64,000 nt of DNA from Moritella sp. 5 (GTDB taxonomy: Bacteria > Pseudomonadota > Gammaproteobacteria > Enterobacterales > Moritellaceae), in NCBI RefSeq assembly GCF_018219455.1, contig NZ_CP056122.1, positions 2,356,001 to 2,420,000 on the forward strand. Reading direction: 5' to 3'. Positions within the stretch are counted from its first letter, which is position 1. Every line of letters begins with the position of its first letter. The notes under the pieces are model-generated. The model searched no databases and was not told the DNA's origin. It worked only from the letters and a program-made list of their open reading frames with translations. The translations under genes were made by a program, and so were the position numbers. Shown here piece after piece: positions 2,908 through 13,371 of this stretch.

Positions 2908-4154
2908 TGTTTCGTCCGTTAGCGGCTTATATCGGATTGAGGTATACATCATCTAAGCGTCGAAATGGCTTTATTGCGTTTATCTCAGCATCCTCAACTG
3001 TAGGCATTGCATTAGGTGTGATGGTATTGATTATTGGTTTATCTGCAATGAACGGTTTTGAGTATGAGCTTAAAAACCGGATTTTAGCGGTTGTGCCTAA
3101 TGGTGAGCTCGAAGGGGTGAGTGAACCTTTTGATGATTGGCAAAGTGCACAGAAGACATTACTCGACCATCCCGAAGTTGTCGGCGCAGCACCCTTTATC
3201 AAACTGAATGGTTTATTACAAAAAGGTCATGAGTTAAAGGCGGTTCAACTTCGCGCGGTCGACAGTGAGGCTGAAAAGCAAGTCTCTGAAGTATACCGGT
3301 ATGTTGCGCAAGGGACGTGGGATAGTCTTAATGACCCGACTAATAACCGACAAGTTGTGCTCGGTCGAGGCATTGCAAAAGAGCTTAAGTTAGCACTTGG
3401 AGATACGGTCACGGTATTATTATCGCAGCAATCAGGGCAATCCTTTAAAGCACCACGCCGTTTTAACTTTACTGTATCAGGTATTATTCACCTAAGTGGT
3501 CAATTAGATAACAACCTTGCCTATGTGCCTTTGAGTGCAGCTCAAGATATTCAGGATAAAGCGTTTAAAGCAGATGGCTTGAGTATTAAAGTGACTGACA
3601 TTTTTGCGGCGAACCGTATTGTCCGTGAAGCGGGTAATAAGTTAAATCATTACTTGTACATTCGCAGTTGGATGACAAGTCAGGGGTTCTTATATCAAGA
3701 TATTCAGATGGTTAAAAGTTTGATGTACGTAATCTTAATTTTAGTTATTGCCGTGGCTTGTTTTAATATTGTGACCACATTAGTGATGGCAGTTAATGAT
3801 AAGCGAGCAGATATTGCCATTTTAAAAACGATGGGGGCGTCAAATACGTTATTACGTTTGATCTTCATCGTGCACGGAGGTATTAACGGTATTCTTGGTG
3901 TTGTTTCAGGGACGATACTGGGTATTTTAATCTCAGAGAATTTAACTGTGATTATCAAATTTATTGAAGGCTTAATAGGTCATGAATTTTTATCAGGTGA
4001 CATATACTTTATCGACTTTCTACCATCCCAGCTTGCAGTAAATGACGTGCTGGTGGTCGGTGGTGTTGCAATGGCCATGAGTGTACTCGCAACTATCTAT
4101 CCAGCAAATAAAGCGTGTTCGGTACAGCCTGCGCGTGAACTCGGAAACAAGTAG
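2907..4154 (+). CDS. lolE: Lipoprotein-releasing ABC transporter permease LolE
   Basis: 415-residue partner permease of LolC. It has the same N-terminal signature (YIGLRYTSSKRRNGFIAFIS), a periplasmic domain at about 50-265, three C-terminal membrane segments and the ending YPANKACSVQPARELGNK. LolE binds the lipoprotein substrate in the LolCDE complex. An AAGGAGGAGG-type Shine-Dalgarno sequence lies just upstream, inside lolD. The gene ends the operon; a hairpin with a run of seven T follows 37 nt after the stop. Length and features are normal. Confidence 0.95.
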   Translation: MFRPLAAYIGLRYTSSKRRNGFIAFISASSTVGIALGVMVLIIGLSAMNGFEYELKNRILAVVPNGELEGVSEPFDDWQSAQKTLLDHPEVVGAAPFIKLNGLLQKGHELKAVQLRAVDSEAEKQVSEVYRYVAQGTWDSLNDPTNNRQVVLGRGIAKELKLALGDTVTVLLSQQSGQSFKAPRRFNFTVSGIIHLSGQLDNNLAYVPLSAAQDIQDKAFKADGLSIKVTDIFAANRIVREAGNKLNHYLYIRSWMTSQGFLYQDIQMVKSLMYVILILVIAVACFNIVTTLVMAVNDKRADIAILKTMGASNTLLRLIFIVHGGINGILGVVSGTILGILISENLTVIIKFIEGLIGHEFLSGDIYFIDFLPSQLAVNDVLVVGGVAMAMSVLATIYPANKACSVQPARELGNK

Positions 4155-4190
4155 TTAAATAAAATTCGCTATATATCAACAAGTAATTGG

Positions 4191-4219
4191 ATGCACTTCC
4201 TCGAGAGGTGTATTTTTTT
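4191..4219 (+). terminator. Intrinsic terminator of lolCDE
   Basis: A 9-bp stem (ATGCACTTC with GAGGTGTAT, including two G-U pairs) with a 5-nt loop is followed directly by TTTTTTT on the plus strand, 37 nt after the lolE stop. Confidence 0.75.
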
Positions 4220-4287
4220 GTCTCGAATTCATGCTTAAATGATAAACCCACAATAGGTTGTTTTAACTCTCCATATTTGAGGTCGAT

Positions 4288-4560
4288 ATGAATATCAGAT
4301 TTGTACTAGCTTTTACATTAATACTAGCCAGTATCGGGTAAATAGTGAGGGCTTAATTATGTAATACCGCCACCGATCAGTGTTGAAAGTGTATTGGTAT
4401 CGTACTTCTTATAGTACAAATGGTTTGTTCTGGAAGAAAATCGGATGAAGAGATGTGCATAGAAGAATTTGACTCTGTGTCTGTGCTCCTAGCCTTTTGG
4501 GATGAAGGTTATTACGGAAAACCCATAAAATTCAGTCTTGTTGGGTATTATGATTATTGA
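4288..4560 (+). pseudogene. Possible relic of a small secreted protein gene
   Basis: The 470-bp stretch between lolE and the DUF2062 gene (4155-4624) has no full-length gene. It holds two short ORFs in a row on the plus strand. The first, 4288-4341 (17 codons), has a GAGGTCGAT Shine-Dalgarno-like leader and encodes MNIRFVLAFTLILASIG, which looks like a signal peptide cut off by a stop. The second, 4420-4560 (46 codons), starts MVCSGRKSDEEMCIEEF and could be the body of the same small exported protein after frame-disrupting changes. I do not recognise a family. It may equally be non-coding sequence. Confidence 0.25.
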
Positions 4561-4577
4561 AATGGGTAAGAATACAA

Positions 4578-4610
4578 AAGGCCACATCGCTGATTAAGTG
4601 ATGTGGCCTT
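4578..4610 (-). terminator. Intrinsic terminator for the DUF2062 gene
   Basis: A perfect 11-bp stem (AAGGCCACATC with GATGTGGCCTT) and 11-nt loop lie 15 nt after the stop of the minus-strand gene at 4625. On the minus strand the stem runs into TTTTGT. A weaker T-rich stretch on the other side would allow action in both directions. Confidence 0.8.
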
Positions 4611-4624
4611 CTCATTTTTAACAC

Positions 4625-5143
4625 TTATTTTGTGCGTGATGCTTTACGTTTCTTCCAAGCATTAATAATTTTCCAACGCCATAACCAGCGGATACTAAAA
4701 TAACCAGCAATAGAAAAGAGTGTGCCGGATACAAAACAGCCAAGTAGAAATGCAGGACCATATAAGTTTATCGCCTGCATTAACCAGTCTATTGTTAGTT
4801 CGAATGAGAATGGATGGACTGGTTCTTGCAATATCCATGCACCTAACTCATAAGTGGCAAAAAACATTGGTGGCATGGTAATGGGGTTTGATAACCACAC
4901 GAGCGCTACTGATAATGGTAAATTTACACGGAATAAAATGGCAAAACCAGCGGCTAATAACATCTGAAAAGGCACGGGAACAAACGCCATAAAAAGACCA
5001 ACAGCGAAAGCACCAGCTGCAGAGCGGCGATTTAGGTGCCAGAGGTTTGGGTTGTGTAACAGATCACCAAAGATCTTAAGGTGCTTATGTTCTTTGATTG
5101 ATTCTGGGTTTGGGAGATATTTTTTAATTAAATTCTTAGGCAT
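4625..5143 (-). CDS. DUF2062 inner-membrane protein
   Basis: 172 residues from the ATG at 5143; a TTG at 5155 would add four residues but sits directly against its GAGAA motif. An amphipathic N-terminus precedes the DUF2062 core: a basic NRRSAAGAFAVGLFMAF segment, then alternating hydrophobic spans with conserved SNPITMPPMFF, and a final membrane segment near 125-155. The C-terminus is strongly basic (WRWKIINAWKKRKASRTK) and presumably cytoplasmic. Function in the family is unknown. In related genomes such genes sit beside comEC, as here, where it is divergent from the ComEC-like gene with only 28 bp between starts. Confidence 0.8.
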   Translation of the reverse strand: MPKNLIKKYLPNPESIKEHKHLKIFGDLLHNPNLWHLNRRSAAGAFAVGLFMAFVPVPFQMLLAAGFAILFRVNLPLSVALVWLSNPITMPPMFFATYELGAWILQEPVHPFSFELTIDWLMQAINLYGPAFLLGCFVSGTLFSIAGYFSIRWLWRWKIINAWKKRKASRTK

Positions 5144-6763: not shown

Positions 6764-7108
6764 ATGAATAAAACCCTTAAAGCAGGCCTATTATCCGCGT
6801 TCTTATTTCCAGGTGCTGGACATTTGTGGTTAAAGAAGTATATGGCGGCGACTGTCTTTGCCGTTGCTGCAGCGCTACCACTGTATTACATTATGGATAT
6901 CACTATAACGCAGACGCAATTAATTGTAGATCAAGTTATGTTATCAGGTGGTAATATCGATTTACTCAGTATTAACCAGTTACTTACACAGCAGGCGGCA
7001 TCTATAGATACACAAAACATGCACCTTGCAACTATTGTGTTGCTCTGCGTATGGCTTGTTAATATATTGGATGCAATTAGATTAGCAAGAAAACTTGGGC
7101 ATGAATAA
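6764..7108 (+). CDS. Small TM2-like membrane protein
   Basis: 114 residues beginning MNKTLKAGLLSAFLFPGAGH. The FPGAGHLWLKKY stretch followed by a hydrophobic helix resembles the TM2/DUF-type hairpin seen in small membrane proteins of unknown role. A second membrane segment near 87-105 (IVLLCVWLVNILDAIRL) ends in a basic tail. An AGGAG Shine-Dalgarno overlaps the stop region of the ComEC-like gene, so the two are probably cotranscribed. I cannot name a function. Confidence 0.55.
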   Translation: MNKTLKAGLLSAFLFPGAGHLWLKKYMAATVFAVAAALPLYYIMDITITQTQLIVDQVMLSGGNIDLLSINQLLTQQAASIDTQNMHLATIVLLCVWLVNILDAIRLARKLGHE

Positions 7109-8203: not shown

Positions 8204-9688
8204 TTAGGTTGCGCTACAAAACACCAGTATACGTTTTTTTGCTTCTTCGATAATCTTACATTGCGGTAAGCTGGTAATAAGTAATTCTGACTCAGTTGAT
8301 TTTAGGGTGACAAAATAAGTGTCTTTTGTTATGCCTTGTACTGCGACTTCTAGCTTTTCTTTACGTTCAACCGCGACACCACGCGAATAAAACTGTGCAG
8401 AGAATGGGCGTTTATCAATATAAATCAGCTCATTATTTTGTGCTTGCTCTGACCACGTTTGCATCAACCCTTTTTCTGATTGCTTACCAGTTACTTCTGT
8501 ACGTAATAAAATAGCGACAAGCAAGATTAATATGGGGGTTATAAAGCCTGTCTTATATACTTTGCTTGATAAGGGGTTATTACGTTGATATGTCACCATC
8601 AATAATGCAAATGCGGGTAAGCAAGGCATCACATAGCTAGACAGAATGTTGCCGCTGAATGTAAATAAGAGTAGGGGTGCTAACAACCATGCCCATAAGA
8701 AACTGGTATAACTAAGTTCAGTGGTATCATCATCTTGTTTTGCTTGGGTTTCAGTTTCAGTTTCAGTTCTTTTTGTTATTTGTAAGCTTTTAATCCATTG
8801 ATAAATAAAAATTGGCGTCCAAGGTAGTGCAGATACAATAGCGAATATCCAAATTGTGCCTTTTATTTCCTTATGTGCCGTTCCATATAAATCACCTTGC
8901 CATCCACTTACTAAGAAGCGTTTAACATGCTCGCCAACAATGAAATAATTAAGGAAACCCGGAGATGAATACTCTGCAATCATGTACCAAGGTAAACTTG
9001 TCGCAAGGAAAAGTGGAATACCTGTTTTCCACGGTAAGCGACGGAACATACCCGCCCAAGTTTTGTTAAATAATGCCCAGATGAACAAACTTACGCCAAT
9101 TAAGACTAATGCTAGTGGACCCTTCGCTAACATGCCGACGGTTAAGCCAATAAAAAACAGGTGACCCCATAACGCGGATTTGTTTTTATAGTTAAGCCAA
9201 AATGCAGCCATGCTTAACGTAATGCCTAAAGTCAGAGCTGTGTCAGTCATGACTGCGCCTGTCACCACGATAAACGTCGTTGTAGTTGCAAGGATACCTG
9301 CTGCTAACCATGCTTCTTGTTTACGATCTGCAGTGCTACGCGATGGGGTAATACTATAAGCAAGCAGACCGACGATGAATAGCACGAAGCCACCAGCAAG
9401 TAAGTGTGGCAATCTAACGGCTAACTCATTTAAACCAAATAGCTTAATACCGCTCGCGCTCATCCAGGTGAATAGGGGGGGCTTACCCCAGAATGGTACA
9501 TCGTAATCGAACATCGGTGTGACCCAATTGCCTGTTTCAGCCATGATCCTAGCCATTTCACCGTAACGAGCTTCTGTTGTGTCCATGAGAGGAAAGAAGC
9601 CGAGGGTAAATAATCTGATTACTATCGCGGTGATAACCAGTGTGATTGCTATTTTGGTCAAAGATAATTGCTTCAGTGCGTTAGACAT
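8204..9688 (-). CDS. GT39/ArnT-like integral membrane glycosyltransferase
   Basis: 494 residues with about 12 predicted membrane segments. The first periplasmic loop carries the ArnT/PMT signature LMDTTEARYGEMARIMAETGNW, with the acidic catalytic pair (Asp and Glu of D-x-x-E-A-R-Y), and then PFWGKPPLFTW. Such enzymes transfer a sugar from a polyprenyl-phosphate donor to an envelope acceptor; ArnT moves L-Ara4N to lipid A. The acceptor and sugar here are unknown. The gene lies 5 bp after the GT2 gene that probably makes the donor, so the pair forms an operon. A TETETET acidic run near 310 comes from three in-frame TTTCAG repeats in the plus-strand reading. It is probably controlled by the neighbouring two-component system through the operator at 10800-10817. 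Confidence 0.85.
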   Translation of the reverse strand: MSNALKQLSLTKIAITLVITAIVIRLFTLGFFPLMDTTEARYGEMARIMAETGNWVTPMFDYDVPFWGKPPLFTWMSASGIKLFGLNELAVRLPHLLAGGFVLFIVGLLAYSITPSRSTADRKQEAWLAAGILATTTTFIVVTGAVMTDTALTLGITLSMAAFWLNYKNKSALWGHLFFIGLTVGMLAKGPLALVLIGVSLFIWALFNKTWAGMFRRLPWKTGIPLFLATSLPWYMIAEYSSPGFLNYFIVGEHVKRFLVSGWQGDLYGTAHKEIKGTIWIFAIVSALPWTPIFIYQWIKSLQITKRTETETETQAKQDDDTTELSYTSFLWAWLLAPLLLFTFSGNILSSYVMPCLPAFALLMVTYQRNNPLSSKVYKTGFITPILILLVAILLRTEVTGKQSEKGLMQTWSEQAQNNELIYIDKRPFSAQFYSRGVAVERKEKLEVAVQGITKDTYFVTLKSTESELLITSLPQCKIIEEAKKRILVFCSAT

Positions 9689-9693
9689 GTCGA

Positions 9694-10752
9694 CTAGCCT
9701 TGTTTGTAATTGGTGTTGTGTGTTTGATTCGTACTTGTCTGCTGATTTACGTTAAAGACTATACTTGATACGGTGGTTTTTTCATCCATGACAATAAAGT
9801 TAGGTCTTTGTTTCGATTCAATAAATAAACGGCCGACATACTCACCCATCAAACCAATCGATAATAGTTGTATGCCGCCAAGTAATAAGACGACTGTCAT
9901 GAGGGAAGGGTAACCCGCTACTGGGTCACCCCAAAATAGGGTTTTACTGACGAGTACAATCGCCATTAATATCGAAATGAACGATGTGACGACGCCTGCC
10001 GCTGTGGCGATACGTAATGGCTTAATACTAAAAGAGGTAATACCTTCAAAGGCGAGGTGAATTAGTTTCGTGTAATTCCACTTAGTGATACCTGCTTGGC
10101 GCGCATCACGGTCGAATTGTAATGTACAGGTATTGAAACCAGGCCAAGATAGCAGCCCTTTCATGAAACGATTACGTTCTGGTAAGTTATTAATGACATC
10201 GACCACTTTACGGTCTAATAGTCTAAAATCACCCACATTACGGGGTATTTCAATATCAGCCAGACGGTTAATGAGTTTATAAAAAAGGGAGGCCGTTGTA
10301 CGTTTTAGCCAATTTTCACCGTGGCGTTCTTTACGTTGCATATTAACGACATCATAACCACGTTCCCATTCGACGACCATTTGAGGAATGAGTTCGGGTG
10401 GATCTTGCAAATCGGCATCCAATAGAATGATCGCGAGGCCTGCCGCATTAACCATACCCGCGGTCATCGCGGCTTCTTTACCAAAGTTACGACTGAGTTT
10501 AATACACCGTATTACATGATTATTGGCTGTAAAATTAATGACCTGAGACCATGAGTCATCCCGGCTACCATCATCAATATAAATAATCTCGCAAGATTTT
10601 CCGATAGAATTGAGTACAGCAACAACACGCTGATGGCAAGATGTTAGCACTTCATCTTCATTAAAAAATGGAACCACAATTGACAATAATGGTGGTAAGG
10701 TAACTTTAGGCCCATCTCTATGCCCTGTAATAGATGTGATATTGGCTTGCAT
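9694..10752 (-). CDS. GT2 polyprenyl-phosphate glycosyltransferase (GtrB/ArnC/DPM1-like)
   Basis: 352 residues. The N-terminal GT-A domain (about 20-245) has the nucleotide-binding VVPFFNEDEVL segment, YIDDGSRDDSW and the metal-binding ILLDADLQDPPELIPQM. Two C-terminal helices (about 250-280 and 288-315) anchor it in the inner membrane, as in GtrB and ArnC. Family members load a sugar from a nucleotide donor onto undecaprenyl phosphate on the cytoplasmic face. The partner flippase GtrA lies at 12916-13305 and the lipid-to-acceptor transferase follows at 8204. The promoter region holds an operator (10800-10817) and a TAGCAT -10-like hexamer, shared in layout with the regulator and gtrA promoters. 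Confidence 0.88.
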   Translation of the reverse strand: MQANITSITGHRDGPKVTLPPLLSIVVPFFNEDEVLTSCHQRVVAVLNSIGKSCEIIYIDDGSRDDSWSQVINFTANNHVIRCIKLSRNFGKEAAMTAGMVNAAGLAIILLDADLQDPPELIPQMVVEWERGYDVVNMQRKERHGENWLKRTTASLFYKLINRLADIEIPRNVGDFRLLDRKVVDVINNLPERNRFMKGLLSWPGFNTCTLQFDRDARQAGITKWNYTKLIHLAFEGITSFSIKPLRIATAAGVVTSFISILMAIVLVSKTLFWGDPVAGYPSLMTVVLLLGGIQLLSIGLMGEYVGRLFIESKQRPNFIVMDEKTTVSSIVFNVNQQTSTNQTHNTNYKQG

Positions 10753-10799
10753 ATAGCATTCCCAAACGGATTAACAATATTGGAATGCTAACTAGGTGG

Positions 10800-10817
10800 A
10801 TGTCGAATAAATGTTTT
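10800..10817 (-). promoter_or_regulatory. Operator copy 1, for the GT2-GT39 operon
   Basis: On the minus strand this reads ACATT-TA-TTCGACAT. Nine nucleotides later comes TAGCAT (10790-10785), a plausible -10 hexamer, and 47 nt separate the box from the ATG at 10752. The two ACAT cores are 11 bp apart, one helical turn, as expected for an OmpR-family dimer site. See the copies at 10845 and 13354. Confidence 0.65.
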
Positions 10818-10834
10818 CGACATGTTTTTTACAT
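10817..10834 (+). promoter_or_regulatory. Additional half-site pair between the divergent promoters
   Basis: TCGACAT (10817-10823) and TTTACAT (10828-10834) are direct repeats with an 11-bp period, made of the same two half-sites as the main operators but in reverse order. With the flanking boxes the 63 bp from 10800 to 10862 hold six half-sites, suggesting cooperative binding of the response regulator. Confidence 0.45.
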
Positions 10835-10844
10835 TTTCTGTATT

Positions 10845-10862
10845 TTTACATTAATTCGACAT
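10845..10862 (+). promoter_or_regulatory. Operator copy 2, for the two-component system genes
   Basis: TTTACATT-AA-TTCGACAT is followed after nine nucleotides by CATAAT (10872-10877), a good -10 hexamer. The box ends 48 nt before the ATG at 10911. Its position overlaps the -35 region, and no good -35 consensus is present, as is usual for an activated promoter. It implies autoregulation. Confidence 0.7.
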
Positions 10863-10910
10863 CGTCTTTGTCATAATAGCCCCGTATTTATTTTATTAGA
10901 TTGAGTGACT

Positions 10911-11582
10911 ATGAAAATATTATTAGTAGAAGATCATCAAGATATCGCCGGCATTATTTTTGATTTTTTTGAAATTAAAGGCTACACCTTGGATTATGCG
11001 CAAGATGGTGTGCATGGTTATGAGCTCGCTAGTAATAACTATTATGATTTAATTATTTTAGATATACAGATGCCACGTATGGATGGTTTAACTGTTTGTC
11101 AAAAATTGCGAGAGCAGGGGAATGATACACCAATCCTGATGTTAACTGCCCGCGATACCCGAGAAGATACGTTAGCTGGTTTTGATTGTGGTGCGGATGA
11201 TTATCTTATTAAACCATTTGACCTTGATATTTTAGCTGCGCGAATTCAAGCGTTACATCGCCGTCGCAGTGGCCAAAATATAGCCAAAACATTAACCTTT
11301 CATGAATTGTCTCTGGACCTAAAGACCCATGTTGCCACACGTAATGGCTGTAATTTCGAACTTAATCCGACCCAATTTACGATTTTAAAATTATTGATGA
11401 TGCGTACACCTGAAATTGTCACTAAAAGTGAGATAATTAACGCGATTTGGGGGCAAGACGAACCTGAAGGGGATATTCTGCGTAGTCATATCTATCAGCT
11501 ACGTAACCAGGTTGATAAACCTTTTCAACAGCATTACATTAAAACCTTATCCAAAATCGGCTATCAGTTAGTATCTAGTTAA
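10911..11582 (+). CDS. OmpR-family response regulator
   Basis: 223 residues from the ATG at 10911; a GTG six bases upstream is possible but less likely. The receiver domain (1-115) has the acidic pair in VEDHQD, the phospho-acceptor Asp51 in LIILDIQMPRMDG, the Thr in MLTARD and Lys in LIKPFD. The C-terminal winged helix (about 128-220) ends in the family pattern ILRSHIYQLRNQVDKPF...IKTLSKIGYQLVS. It is encoded with its kinase 67 bp downstream and sits between the glycosylation genes it probably controls. The 11-bp-period operators at 10800, 10845 and 13354 are its likely binding sites (inference). Confidence 0.93.
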   Translation: MKILLVEDHQDIAGIIFDFFEIKGYTLDYAQDGVHGYELASNNYYDLIILDIQMPRMDGLTVCQKLREQGNDTPILMLTARDTREDTLAGFDCGADDYLIKPFDLDILAARIQALHRRRSGQNIAKTLTFHELSLDLKTHVATRNGCNFELNPTQFTILKLLMMRTPEIVTKSEIINAIWGQDEPEGDILRSHIYQLRNQVDKPFQQHYIKTLSKIGYQLVSS

Positions 11583-11649
11583 ATCGCTCGAACAACAAGA
11601 TAATAATTAGGTCAAAAAGACAAGGGTTTGTTCCAATAAGGTAATAATA

Positions 11650-12906
11650 ATGGCAAAAGTTAGGTCTGCGAAACAACTTACATTCATTTATTTTTCTATC
11701 GTTGCTTTTGCGATCATCATGATCCACGCCACAGTGCTTGACTCCACGCTTGAAAGTATCGAAAAATTGAGTATTCAAAATAGGCTGTTATTACAGAAAG
11801 AGTCAATTGTTGAAAAATCTAATTTAAGTAATCATACTAGCTCGTTCAAAATTGACGAATTTACAACGGGTTATGTGGATCGAGTCACCTTACCTGAATT
11901 GGTAGATGAAAAAATTTTTCTACCTATCGATGAAGCGGTGGAAATCCAGAAGAGTAATGCTATAGGTACCGAGTTCTTTTTGATGAAATTGGCCGTGTCA
12001 GAAAAGAAGGATAAATTTATTTATGTTGTTCATACAGACCCTGCTTTTGAACTTGGTGAAGAGGAGATTATGTGGACGCAATCATGGCAGTCTTTAATTT
12101 CGTTATTTTTGTTGTTGGTGGCATTGTTCGTTGTGATGCGAATATCAGAAAGGTTAACGGCACCGATATCTGTATTCGCTAAGCAGATTGCCAATCGCTC
12201 ACCTGACGATACAAGTGATATTCAATTGCCGTCAGGACTTGCAACGAAGGAACTACTGCAATTAGTGGATAGTTACAATCAGAATCAACAACAAAAAAAT
12301 GCATTAATTGAGCGAGAACGGGCTTTCAACCGTATGGCAAGTCACGAATTACGGACACCATTGATGGTGATGCAAGGCGCGACTAATTTATTGAGCTACA
12401 GTAATGAACCTGAATTCATTAAAAAACAGCAAGTGCGTTTACAAAGTGCAACTAACGAGATGAACGATTTTATTGATGCGCTATTATCACTAACTAAATC
12501 AGAGAAAGATTTAGCCTTATCCAAACGACAGCTGACTAAAGAAGAAATAAACGTTATTGTCGATGCACACAGTGCATTATTAAACACCAAATCCGTTGTC
12601 GTTCATATTGAACTAAGGCAAGCGCCAATGGTTATTATTCCTGAGGTCGCGTTAAAACTATTGCTTGGTAATTTGTTAAAGAATGCTTTTACCTGTACGG
12701 ACGCTGGTGAGGTCAATGTTGTTGTTGATAGCCATAGTATCTCTGTGACTGATACTGGTGTGGGTCTTTACAAGAAGCAGCGTAACGATGATGGTCATGG
12801 GCTAGGTTTGTTAATTACCCGAGATATCTGTCGTAAATACAATTGGACATTTGAGTTGAAAAATAACGATGCTGGTGGTTGTATCGCTATTATTCACCTT
12901 TCGTAG
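11650..12906 (+). CDS. Sensor histidine kinase
   Basis: 418 residues. Two membrane segments (about 11-31 and 147-167) enclose a 115-residue periplasmic sensor domain of no recognised family. A HAMP-like linker (SERLTAPISVFAKQI) is followed by the H-box RMASHELRTPLMVM with His232 and an HATPase_c domain having an N-box (LLLGNLLKNAFTCTDAG), a DTGVGL G1 box and GHGLGLLI. The N-box Asn is followed by a somewhat divergent sequence, but the core residues are present. It is the probable phosphodonor of the adjacent response regulator. The signal is unknown; the linkage to envelope sugar modification suggests an envelope cue. It ends 9 bp from the convergent gtrA. Confidence 0.9.
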   Translation: MAKVRSAKQLTFIYFSIVAFAIIMIHATVLDSTLESIEKLSIQNRLLLQKESIVEKSNLSNHTSSFKIDEFTTGYVDRVTLPELVDEKIFLPIDEAVEIQKSNAIGTEFFLMKLAVSEKKDKFIYVVHTDPAFELGEEEIMWTQSWQSLISLFLLLVALFVVMRISERLTAPISVFAKQIANRSPDDTSDIQLPSGLATKELLQLVDSYNQNQQQKNALIERERAFNRMASHELRTPLMVMQGATNLLSYSNEPEFIKKQQVRLQSATNEMNDFIDALLSLTKSEKDLALSKRQLTKEEINVIVDAHSALLNTKSVVVHIELRQAPMVIIPEVALKLLLGNLLKNAFTCTDAGEVNVVVDSHSISVTDTGVGLYKKQRNDDGHGLGLLITRDICRKYNWTFELKNNDAGGCIAIIHLS

Positions 12907-12915
12907 CTCGGCTGA

Positions 12916-13305
12916 TTATTTTTTAAATACCCAACGATCAGCGAGAATAAAGTTAATCAGCATACCAAATAAAATACCGGGAATGATCGCTATGATTGCT
13001 GCACTCCCTGATAGTGAAAGACCTGTCACTAGAATCCAGTAACAAAGCAGGTTGGGGATTGCGCCAAAGCAAGACGAGCAAATAAATTTACTCCATTCCT
13101 GAGCCAATCCTGTGTCATTGTCTAATTGTTGTGTTTTAAAGGTAAAGCTTCGGTTTAATAACCAATTGCTATTCACTGCACAGAAAAAAGCAACTAACCG
13201 AGCAATGAACAAAGGTATTAGAGAAGATAATAACAGCATTGTGCTTAAATCTATTATAAAGCCAATACCTCCGACAAAAGCAAATTTAATGTATTTGGTA
13301 TTCAT
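12916..13305 (-). CDS. gtrA: GtrA-family flippase
   Basis: 129 residues, four predicted membrane helices, with the GtrA signature at the N-terminus (KFAFVGGIGFIIDLSTMLLL) and the mid-protein VNSNWLLNRSFTFK, where the conserved NxxxxRxFTF motif is intact. GtrA proteins are thought to flip undecaprenyl-phosphate-linked sugar made by GtrB-type enzymes to the periplasm. The GT2 and GT39 partners are 2.2 kb away on the same strand, beyond the two-component genes. The promoter carries operator copy 3 at 13354-13371, indicating coregulation with them. The gene symbol is by family only. Confidence 0.88.
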   Translation of the reverse strand: MNTKYIKFAFVGGIGFIIDLSTMLLLSSLIPLFIARLVAFFCAVNSNWLLNRSFTFKTQQLDNDTGLAQEWSKFICSSCFGAIPNLLCYWILVTGLSLSGSAAIIAIIPGILFGMLINFILADRWVFKK

Positions 13306-13353
13306 GTTTAATGCACGCCAATAAGTTTACAAATATAAAATCTAGCACTAAAC

Positions 13354-13371
13354 ATGTCGAAAAAATGTAAA
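13354..13371 (-). promoter_or_regulatory. Operator copy 3, for gtrA
   Basis: On the minus strand the sequence is TTTACATT-TT-TTCGACAT, identical to copy 2 at all 16 non-spacer positions. A -10-like TAGATT (13344-13339) follows after exactly nine nucleotides, and the box ends 48 nt before the gtrA ATG. The match in sequence and spacing to copies 1 and 2 makes chance very unlikely. Confidence 0.7.

Follow-up and report, generated by a model that had tools for sequence, protein, structure and literature searches.

Candidate ColR-type operators accompany a two-component system and a GtrA–GT2–GT39 gene module in Moritella and other marine bacteria

The ColR response regulator of Pseudomonas putida recognizes a 16-bp box, (T/C)(T/C)NA(C/G)NN(T/C)TTTTT(C/G)AC, which was derived from seven footprints, including one at the GtrA-family gene PP0035 (PMC2689224). 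The PP0035–PP0033 operon also contains PP0034 and PP0033, which encode homologues of ArnC and ArnT, respectively (PMC4074579). Here, we analyzed a 64,000-nt stretch of the Moritella sp. 5 genome (contig NZ_CP056122.1, positions 2,356,001–2,420,000; hereafter, the window, with position 1 as its first nucleotide), in which the genes of a response regulator (RR) and its histidine kinase lie between a GT2–GT39 pair of glycosyltransferase genes and a gtrA gene. The short repeats at the promoters of this locus are very probably ColR-type operators, to which the RR encoded at 10911 would bind and, driven by the kinase, activate the GT2–GT39, RR–kinase, and gtrA units, leading to glycosylation of the cell envelope. 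On the best reading of the sequence, the system would be ColRS-like, autoregulated, and in control of the GtrA–GT2–GT39 glycosylation module. It looks functional, and the known ColR code, placed in a new context, explains most of it. What sets this lineage apart is a bidirectional element of four half-sites and the behavior of the genes as a cassette.

ColRS of P. putida resembles this system in several respects. In P. putida, a footprint lies at a GtrA gene with an ArnC-like/ArnT-like operon, the target types found here, several boxes lie between divergent genes, the regulon includes DgkA and the lipopolysaccharide-modifying CptA, the kinase carries an ExxE motif near its second transmembrane segment (TM2), and the 16-bp core is in register with the marine motif described below (PMC2689224, PMC4074579). 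Unlike in P. putida, the gene of the regulator lies within the locus that it would control, the operator has four half-sites arranged back to back, sites 1 and 3 of Moritella depart from the T-tract, and a dispersed regulon is not seen. RaxR–RaxH of Xanthomonas is a ColRS-type pair that lies beside an arnT–lpxE–eptA lipid A remodeling cluster and likewise has an ArnT homologue next to it, but the gene set is a different one, and the available text names no GtrA or GT2 in the cluster and describes no operator (PMC8306577). A further parallel is PmrAB–arn of enterobacteria (named in PMC4074579 and PMC8306577). The window RR falls far below the PmrA cut-off. As would be the case here, PmrAB exerts two-component control over lipid A glycosylation of the ArnC/ArnT type, with Fe3+ as a signal; it differs in using another box and in controlling an arnBCADTEF operon instead of GtrA–GT2–GT39. 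The GtrA–GtrB–Gtr modules of O-antigen-converting phages combine a flippase, a polyprenyl-phosphate GT2 enzyme, and a membrane glycosyltransferase, as the window module probably does; the latter differs in surrounding a two-component system, with no phage genes noticed at the locus. Among the literature matches listed, we recognized no description of this operator for Moritella, Shewanella, Photobacterium, or Psychromonas.

A preliminary description of this DNA had reported a repeat, ACATT-NN-TTCGACAT, at three promoters, and the repeat is indeed present exactly at 10800–10814 (− strand), 10848–10862 (+), and 13354–13368 (−), before GT2–GT39, RR, and gtrA, respectively. Matches to ACATTNNTTCGACAT without mismatch are confined, in the 64-kb window, to these three copies. 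The reported geometry was also reproduced: the copies before RR and gtrA are identical over all 16 non-spacer bases; each box is 9 nt from a −10-like hexamer (TAGCAT at 10785–10790, −; CATAAT at 10872–10877, +; TAGATT at 13339–13344, −) and 47, 48, and 48 nt, respectively, from the ATG; and the ACAT cores are spaced 11 bp apart. The further half-site pair that had been reported at 10817–10834 was found as well, with ACAT at 10820 and 10831. The view of three equal copies, on the other hand, had to be revised, as there are four dimer-sized sites: site 1 (ACATTTATTCGACAT, 10800–10814, −; the first reported copy), directed at the GT2–GT39 operon; site 2 (ACATGTTTTTTACAT, 10820–10834, +), the further pair; site 3 (ACATTAATTCGACAT, 10848–10862, +; the second copy), adjoining the RR promoter; and site 4 (ACATTTTTTCGACAT, 13354–13368, −; the third copy), at the gtrA promoter. 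A comparison of the regions upstream of RR orthologues places the core unit in sites 1 and 2, which form a back-to-back operator, [ATGT-N7-ATGT]-N5-[ACAT-N7-ACAT], at 10800–10834, common to the divergent GT2–GT39 and RR–kinase promoters.

No known consensus had been recognized in the box, but its conserved form matches that of P. putida ColR. To define the sample, 54 RR matches were obtained at E ≤ 1e-68, one of them the window's own; 39 of the other 53 were taken as regions, together with one from the Moritella genome G069. After removal of L195, L199, and L201 (duplicates of L031–L033) and of L200 (a deletion scar in G069), 36 of these regions and the 11 best loci of an RR homologue search (L031–L041) made up a set of 47 order-level loci, in each of which the scan was placed at the promoter of the RR-linked operon. 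Two members of the set, L221 and L222, come from the same genus and are nearly identical. Of the 14 matches outside the region set, four (L125, L126, L129, and L140) were compared upstream. The remaining loci of the homologue search, L042–L110 (mostly Streptomyces), were excluded for their distance, the regions upstream of L042 and L043 having been displayed. The ColR consensus was found with 0, ≤1, and ≤2 mismatches in 15, 30, and 44 of the 47 loci, compared with shuffle means of 0.00, 0.87 (maximum 3), and 7.5 (maximum 12) and with 0.1%, 1.8%, and 14.4% of 940 random windows from the same loci. The upstream regions of 39 distant class-level RR relatives, the paralogue from the same Moritella genome included, gave 0, 1, and 8 matches, the shuffle being the fairer control because these genomes may be less AT-rich. 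Furthermore, the marine and P. putida motifs correlate at 0.858 in register, a value reached by none of 5000 column permutations, and each of the seven P. putida sites, scored on the marine matrix, outscores all but 0–24 of 1000 shuffles. The genes linked to the RR loci (by Pfam and tblastn, a matter of gene linkage only) belong to target families of the ColR type, namely GtrA/ArnC-like/ArnT-like, eptA/cptA, and dgkA.

The motif also emerged without being supplied. Expectation maximization (EM) was applied to divergent GT2|RR regions from 19 non-redundant loci outside Moritella. At a width of 21, picked after seeing the upstream alignment, it converged on a 27-bit motif, TGTcATtGACATTTTTTtCAC, that has a site in all 19 loci. 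The next match lay on the opposite strand at a 10-bp offset in 18 of the 19, partly because the center of the motif is palindromic. When a position weight matrix (PWM) derived from these non-Moritella sites was run over both strands of the window, the gtrA box ranked first with a score of 17.1, the site at 10816–10837 (site 2) third, and the site at 10844–10865 (site 3) eleventh; site 1 was outside the top 15. In the seven other Moritella with the same gene order, the gtrA box is likewise clear (0–6 of 500 shuffles score as high).

Could the repeats be chance occurrences, or generic elements of AT-rich promoters such as T-tracts, −35-like, or UP-like sequences, with no dedicated regulator? T-tracts are common in such promoters, and once ≤3 mismatches are allowed, the pattern occurs in the window about as often as expected by chance (30 found versus 32.4 expected). 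The window has no exact copies besides the three, however, and each of these is at a promoter of the same locus; the conservation, de novo discovery, shuffle controls, and relocation with the genes all speak against an origin by chance, which we regard as extremely improbable.

A four-half-site layout, often with degenerate half-sites, is found upstream of RR in Moritella, Psychromonas, Photobacterium, Shewanella, and other families, and the possibility that the box is not conserved upstream of orthologues, which the preliminary description had left open, can be set aside. In the 5-Mb genome of Moritella sp. 5, the composite pattern with ≤1 mismatch has one match, the exact one at 10800–10834, and the RR promoters of the seven other RR-bearing Moritella carry it with a single mismatch. 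Site 2 has counterparts outside the genus; a counterpart of site 3, additional to site 2, was noticed by eye in Moritella only, where it is present in the other RR-bearing members. The −10 spacing is similarly conserved within Moritella and looser beyond it. In the eight Moritella compared, the gtrA box and a TAnnnT hexamer are always separated by exactly 9 nt, and the RR-proximal box has CATAAT at that distance in seven (CATACT in L198), the latter by eye. Across all sites of the spacing comparison, TAnnnT is 8–10 nt away in 19 of 42.

The gene order around RR varies among loci, and the box moves with the genes. In all five loci in which gtrA is divergent from a run of GT2, GT39, RR, and kinase genes (two of the five being near-copies), oppositely directed boxes lie between gtrA and GT2, with best scores of 7.2–15.4 (0–11 of 500 shuffles as high), and no box precedes RR (best scores −6.0 to 2.2). 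Similarly, where eptA and dgkA, assigned by Pfam, precede RR in its operon (L212), the box is found before eptA, as it is in L232, in which an eptA look-alike, named by eye, is upstream in the RR operon. In L213, which has look-alike eptA and dgkA genes, the stretch compared starts inside eptA, which leaves the start of that gene out. Photobacterium chitinilyticum (L034) has a perfect box before RR. The same locus contains, at 7049–7064, a ColR box with one mismatch that starts 74 nt before a gene resembling an undecaprenyl-phosphate translocase (PF04018), which adjoins the kinase gene. A further possible link to the envelope comes from Aliivibrio (L037), in which the gene at 3055–4863 upstream of RR appears to encode a YejM/PbgA-type membrane sulfatase.

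The module is also lost as a unit together with its regulator. RR is present in eight of 11 Moritella; G001, G027, and G069 have no match at E ≤ 1e-68, and a 47% match in G027 at 3e-62 is taken for the paralogue. These three genomes show three different deletions of the GT39-to-gtrA segment (L200 and L311–L313): G069 keeps the gtrA start codon and an orphan gtrA box, G027 keeps a C-terminal remnant of GT39, and G001 keeps almost nothing. GT2, RR, the kinase, and an intact gtrA were absent by tblastn at the three sites, the genome-wide search covering RR only. Conservation of the box at RR orthologues, its movement with the genes, and the joint loss of module and regulator point to the adjacent RR as the likely binder, as the preliminary description had proposed.

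The RR (10911–11582, +) is of the OmpR type (Response_reg and Trans_reg_C domains) and is 94% and 93% identical to its counterparts in Moritella sp. PE36 and M. dasanensis, respectively. Its recognition helix, LRSHIYQLRN, is near-constant in the RR clade; the five loci with gtrA divergent from GT2 have LRKHIYQLR, and L204 and L205 diverge more. The sensor histidine kinase (11650–12906, +) carries FELGE (residues 133–137) just before TM2, at the place that matches the FExxE motif of ColS. As a ColRS reference, we used a locus on a Pseudomonas aeruginosa plasmid (L308; CP137941.1, 129416–142096) with PAP2, LTA-synthase-family, RR, kinase, methyltransferase, InaA-like, and diacylglycerol kinase genes, which is taken for colRS by synteny. 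One element of this synteny is the InaA-like gene, which we assume to be a usual neighbor of colRS. PAP2 and methyltransferase genes lie beside colRS in P. putida (PMC2689224). At 46% identity to the window RR, the plasmid RR has a similar helix, LRSHIHQLRQ. FEARE precedes TM2 in the plasmid kinase, and the locus contains two perfect boxes. The plasmid locus holds two LTA-synthase-family genes in all and lies near a Tn3-family transposase gene. In an alignment of 48 kinases (47 from the clade and one ColS-like, the latter row being shifted), the first Glu of the motif is present in 47, both Glu in 18, and Glu plus Asp in 13, and a plain search for ExxE before TM2 succeeded in 27 of 50 kinases, TM2 being misplaced in some.

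Is the system then simply a strict orthologue of Pseudomonas ColRS, an envelope regulator responsive to metals, with nothing lineage-specific about it? This narrower version of our explanation, which does not exclude it, is possible but rather doubtful. The box and the target families (gtrA/arnC-like/arnT-like, eptA, and dgkA) are the same, the helix is nearly so, the kinase has an FExxE-like motif, and in an unrooted tree the 49 order-level RRs fall on one side of a branch with 100/99 support, as expected under vertical descent. The ColR-like rows, however, fall with moderate support among other class-level RRs on the opposite side, and the tree does not single out ColR as the orthologue because the paralogue from Moritella sp. 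5 itself shares that side. In addition, the PAP2/methyltransferase neighborhood is absent from the window locus, where the neighbors are GT39, GT2, and gtrA (GT39/GT2/gtrA, eptA/dgkA, or other genes at orthologous loci), and the second Glu of ExxE is not retained in Shewanella and in many other rows. We tentatively propose, as quite possible though short of probable, that an RR clade separate from ColR, seen here only in the order of Moritella, Shewanella, Photobacterium, and relatives, has kept the ColR operator code, that the back-to-back element serves as a single bidirectional switch for the regulator's own operon and the glycosylation operon, and that the cassette is rearranged or lost as a unit.

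Alternatively, the main binder of the boxes could be a different regulator, for example the RR paralogue (genome position 3303320), or several RRs could share them. The paralogue (50% over 205 residues, 196 bits) and the window RR (46% over 222 residues, 207 bits) are about equally close to the plasmid ColR-like RR, and a box-like site lies before a tlpA-like gene both in Moritella that have the window RR and in Moritella that lack it. The helix of the paralogue, LKVHIYNLRK, nevertheless departs from LRSHIYQLRN of the window RR and LRSHIHQLRQ of the plasmid ColR, and the boxes stay with the window-type RR operon across genera in a locus that is lost as a unit; we judge a different main binder to be unlikely. 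Still less probable, to the point of being very improbable, is that the RR belongs to PhoB or PmrA and that the box is of the corresponding Pho or PmrA kind. Direct repeats at 11 bp are typical of the OmpR family, the PhoB half-site TGTCA resembles the reverse complement, TGACA, and GT2–GT39 resembles the arn genes under PmrA control. The RR, however, scores far below the NCBIfam cut-offs for PhoB (157.8 versus 296.2 bits), PmrA (161.2 versus 330 bits), and TIGR01387, the heavy-metal family of the CusR/CopR/CzcR type (181.6 versus 279.2 bits), and the usual Pho and PmrA consensus words do not fit ACATTTTTTTCAC.

With the adjacent RR as binder of ColR-type operators, the locus suggests the following mechanism. 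Each operator is a direct repeat of AC-containing half-sites, 11 bp apart with a T-rich spacer, that would fit one OmpR-family dimer. The kinase (11650) would phosphorylate the RR (10911), whose dimers would then occupy the operators immediately preceding the −10 elements; in P. putida, the binding of ColR is stronger when it is phosphorylated (PMC2689224). From sites that overlap the −35 region, the RR would activate rather than repress GT2–GT39, RR–kinase, and gtrA in the style of class II activators, with positive autoregulation of RR–kinase through the shared element. The ArnC/PgfS-like GT2 protein (9694–10752, −; below the NCBIfam cut-offs), a probable polyprenyl-phosphate sugar transferase, would make the lipid-linked sugar. 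The GtrA-family membrane protein (12916–13305, −), the sole PF04138 match found in its own genome, would flip it as a probable polyprenyl-phosphate-sugar flippase, and the ArnT-like GT39 (PMT) membrane glycosyltransferase (8204–9688, −; below the NCBIfam ArnT cut-off) would transfer the sugar to an acceptor in the envelope, either lipid A or another one. By analogy with ColS, the kinase probably responds to an excess of metal (Zn or Fe3+) or to a related envelope stress. This interpretation would provide an operator and a probable ligand class for an unnamed two-component system of many marine bacteria, carry the ColR code beyond Pseudomonas into another order, and suggest metal- or stress-induced envelope glycosylation as the function of the GtrA–GT2–GT39 module. 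The movement of the box with its genes amounts to a natural experiment that links operator and targets.

Several observations weigh against the assignment to the ColR type. Sites 1, 2, 3, and 4 have 4, 2, 3, and 1 mismatches to the ColR consensus, so that three of the four fit it poorly, and the remaining one, at gtrA, is one of five matches with one mismatch in the window. L216 and L227 have no box with ≤2 mismatches upstream of RR (L227 has an EM site), and L140, the sole locus of family f7 that was compared, has neither a box nor an adjacent GT2. Of 40 simulated windows, 4 or 5 have a maximum at least as high as the PWM score of 17.1, and the weight of that result therefore rests on the rank of a pre-specified site; moreover, the gtrA promoters of four Psychromonas and Photobacterium loci score weakly. 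The composite pattern is not enriched across the order: with ≤1 mismatch, it occurs in 22 of 394 genomes, eight of which are Moritella (the window's included), all with the match at the RR promoter, and the reversed control likewise matches 22 of 394 by our own count, so the pattern is informative inside Moritella only. The second Glu of the kinase motif, as noted, is not conserved across the clade. Genome-wide, the exact ColR consensus is not enriched either (13 matches, 12 of them inside reading frames, versus 14 in the control).

A scan of the Moritella sp. 5 genome for a wider regulon showed none beyond the locus. ACATNNNTTCGACAT with ≤2 mismatches gave 484 matches compared with 620 in the control, and TTNACATTNNTTCNACAT with ≤1 mismatch gave 11 compared with 8. 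Only three exact matches to TTNACATTNNTTCNACAT are present in the 5-Mb genome, two at this locus and the third upstream of thrA. The concern, expressed in the preliminary description, that the motif might be common in the genome applies to its loose versions and fails for the exact form. In most Moritella, with or without the RR, a thrA-like gene is preceded by the third match (TTTACATTATTTCAACAT, G000:C1:4069058–4069075; equivalents in L166, L168–L170, L174–L176, and L178, and with one mismatch in L172). It was rejected as a regulon member because it is exact in RR-positive Moritella and also in two without the RR; it may belong to a thr leader or attenuator. Elsewhere in the genome, a perfect ColR-consensus box, TCGACATTTTTTTCAC (G000:C1:3440328–3440343; L242), lies between nrdD-like and TlpA/thioredoxin-like genes, named by eye. 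Moritella both with and without the RR retain it; G027 has lost one T, and G069 has two mismatches.

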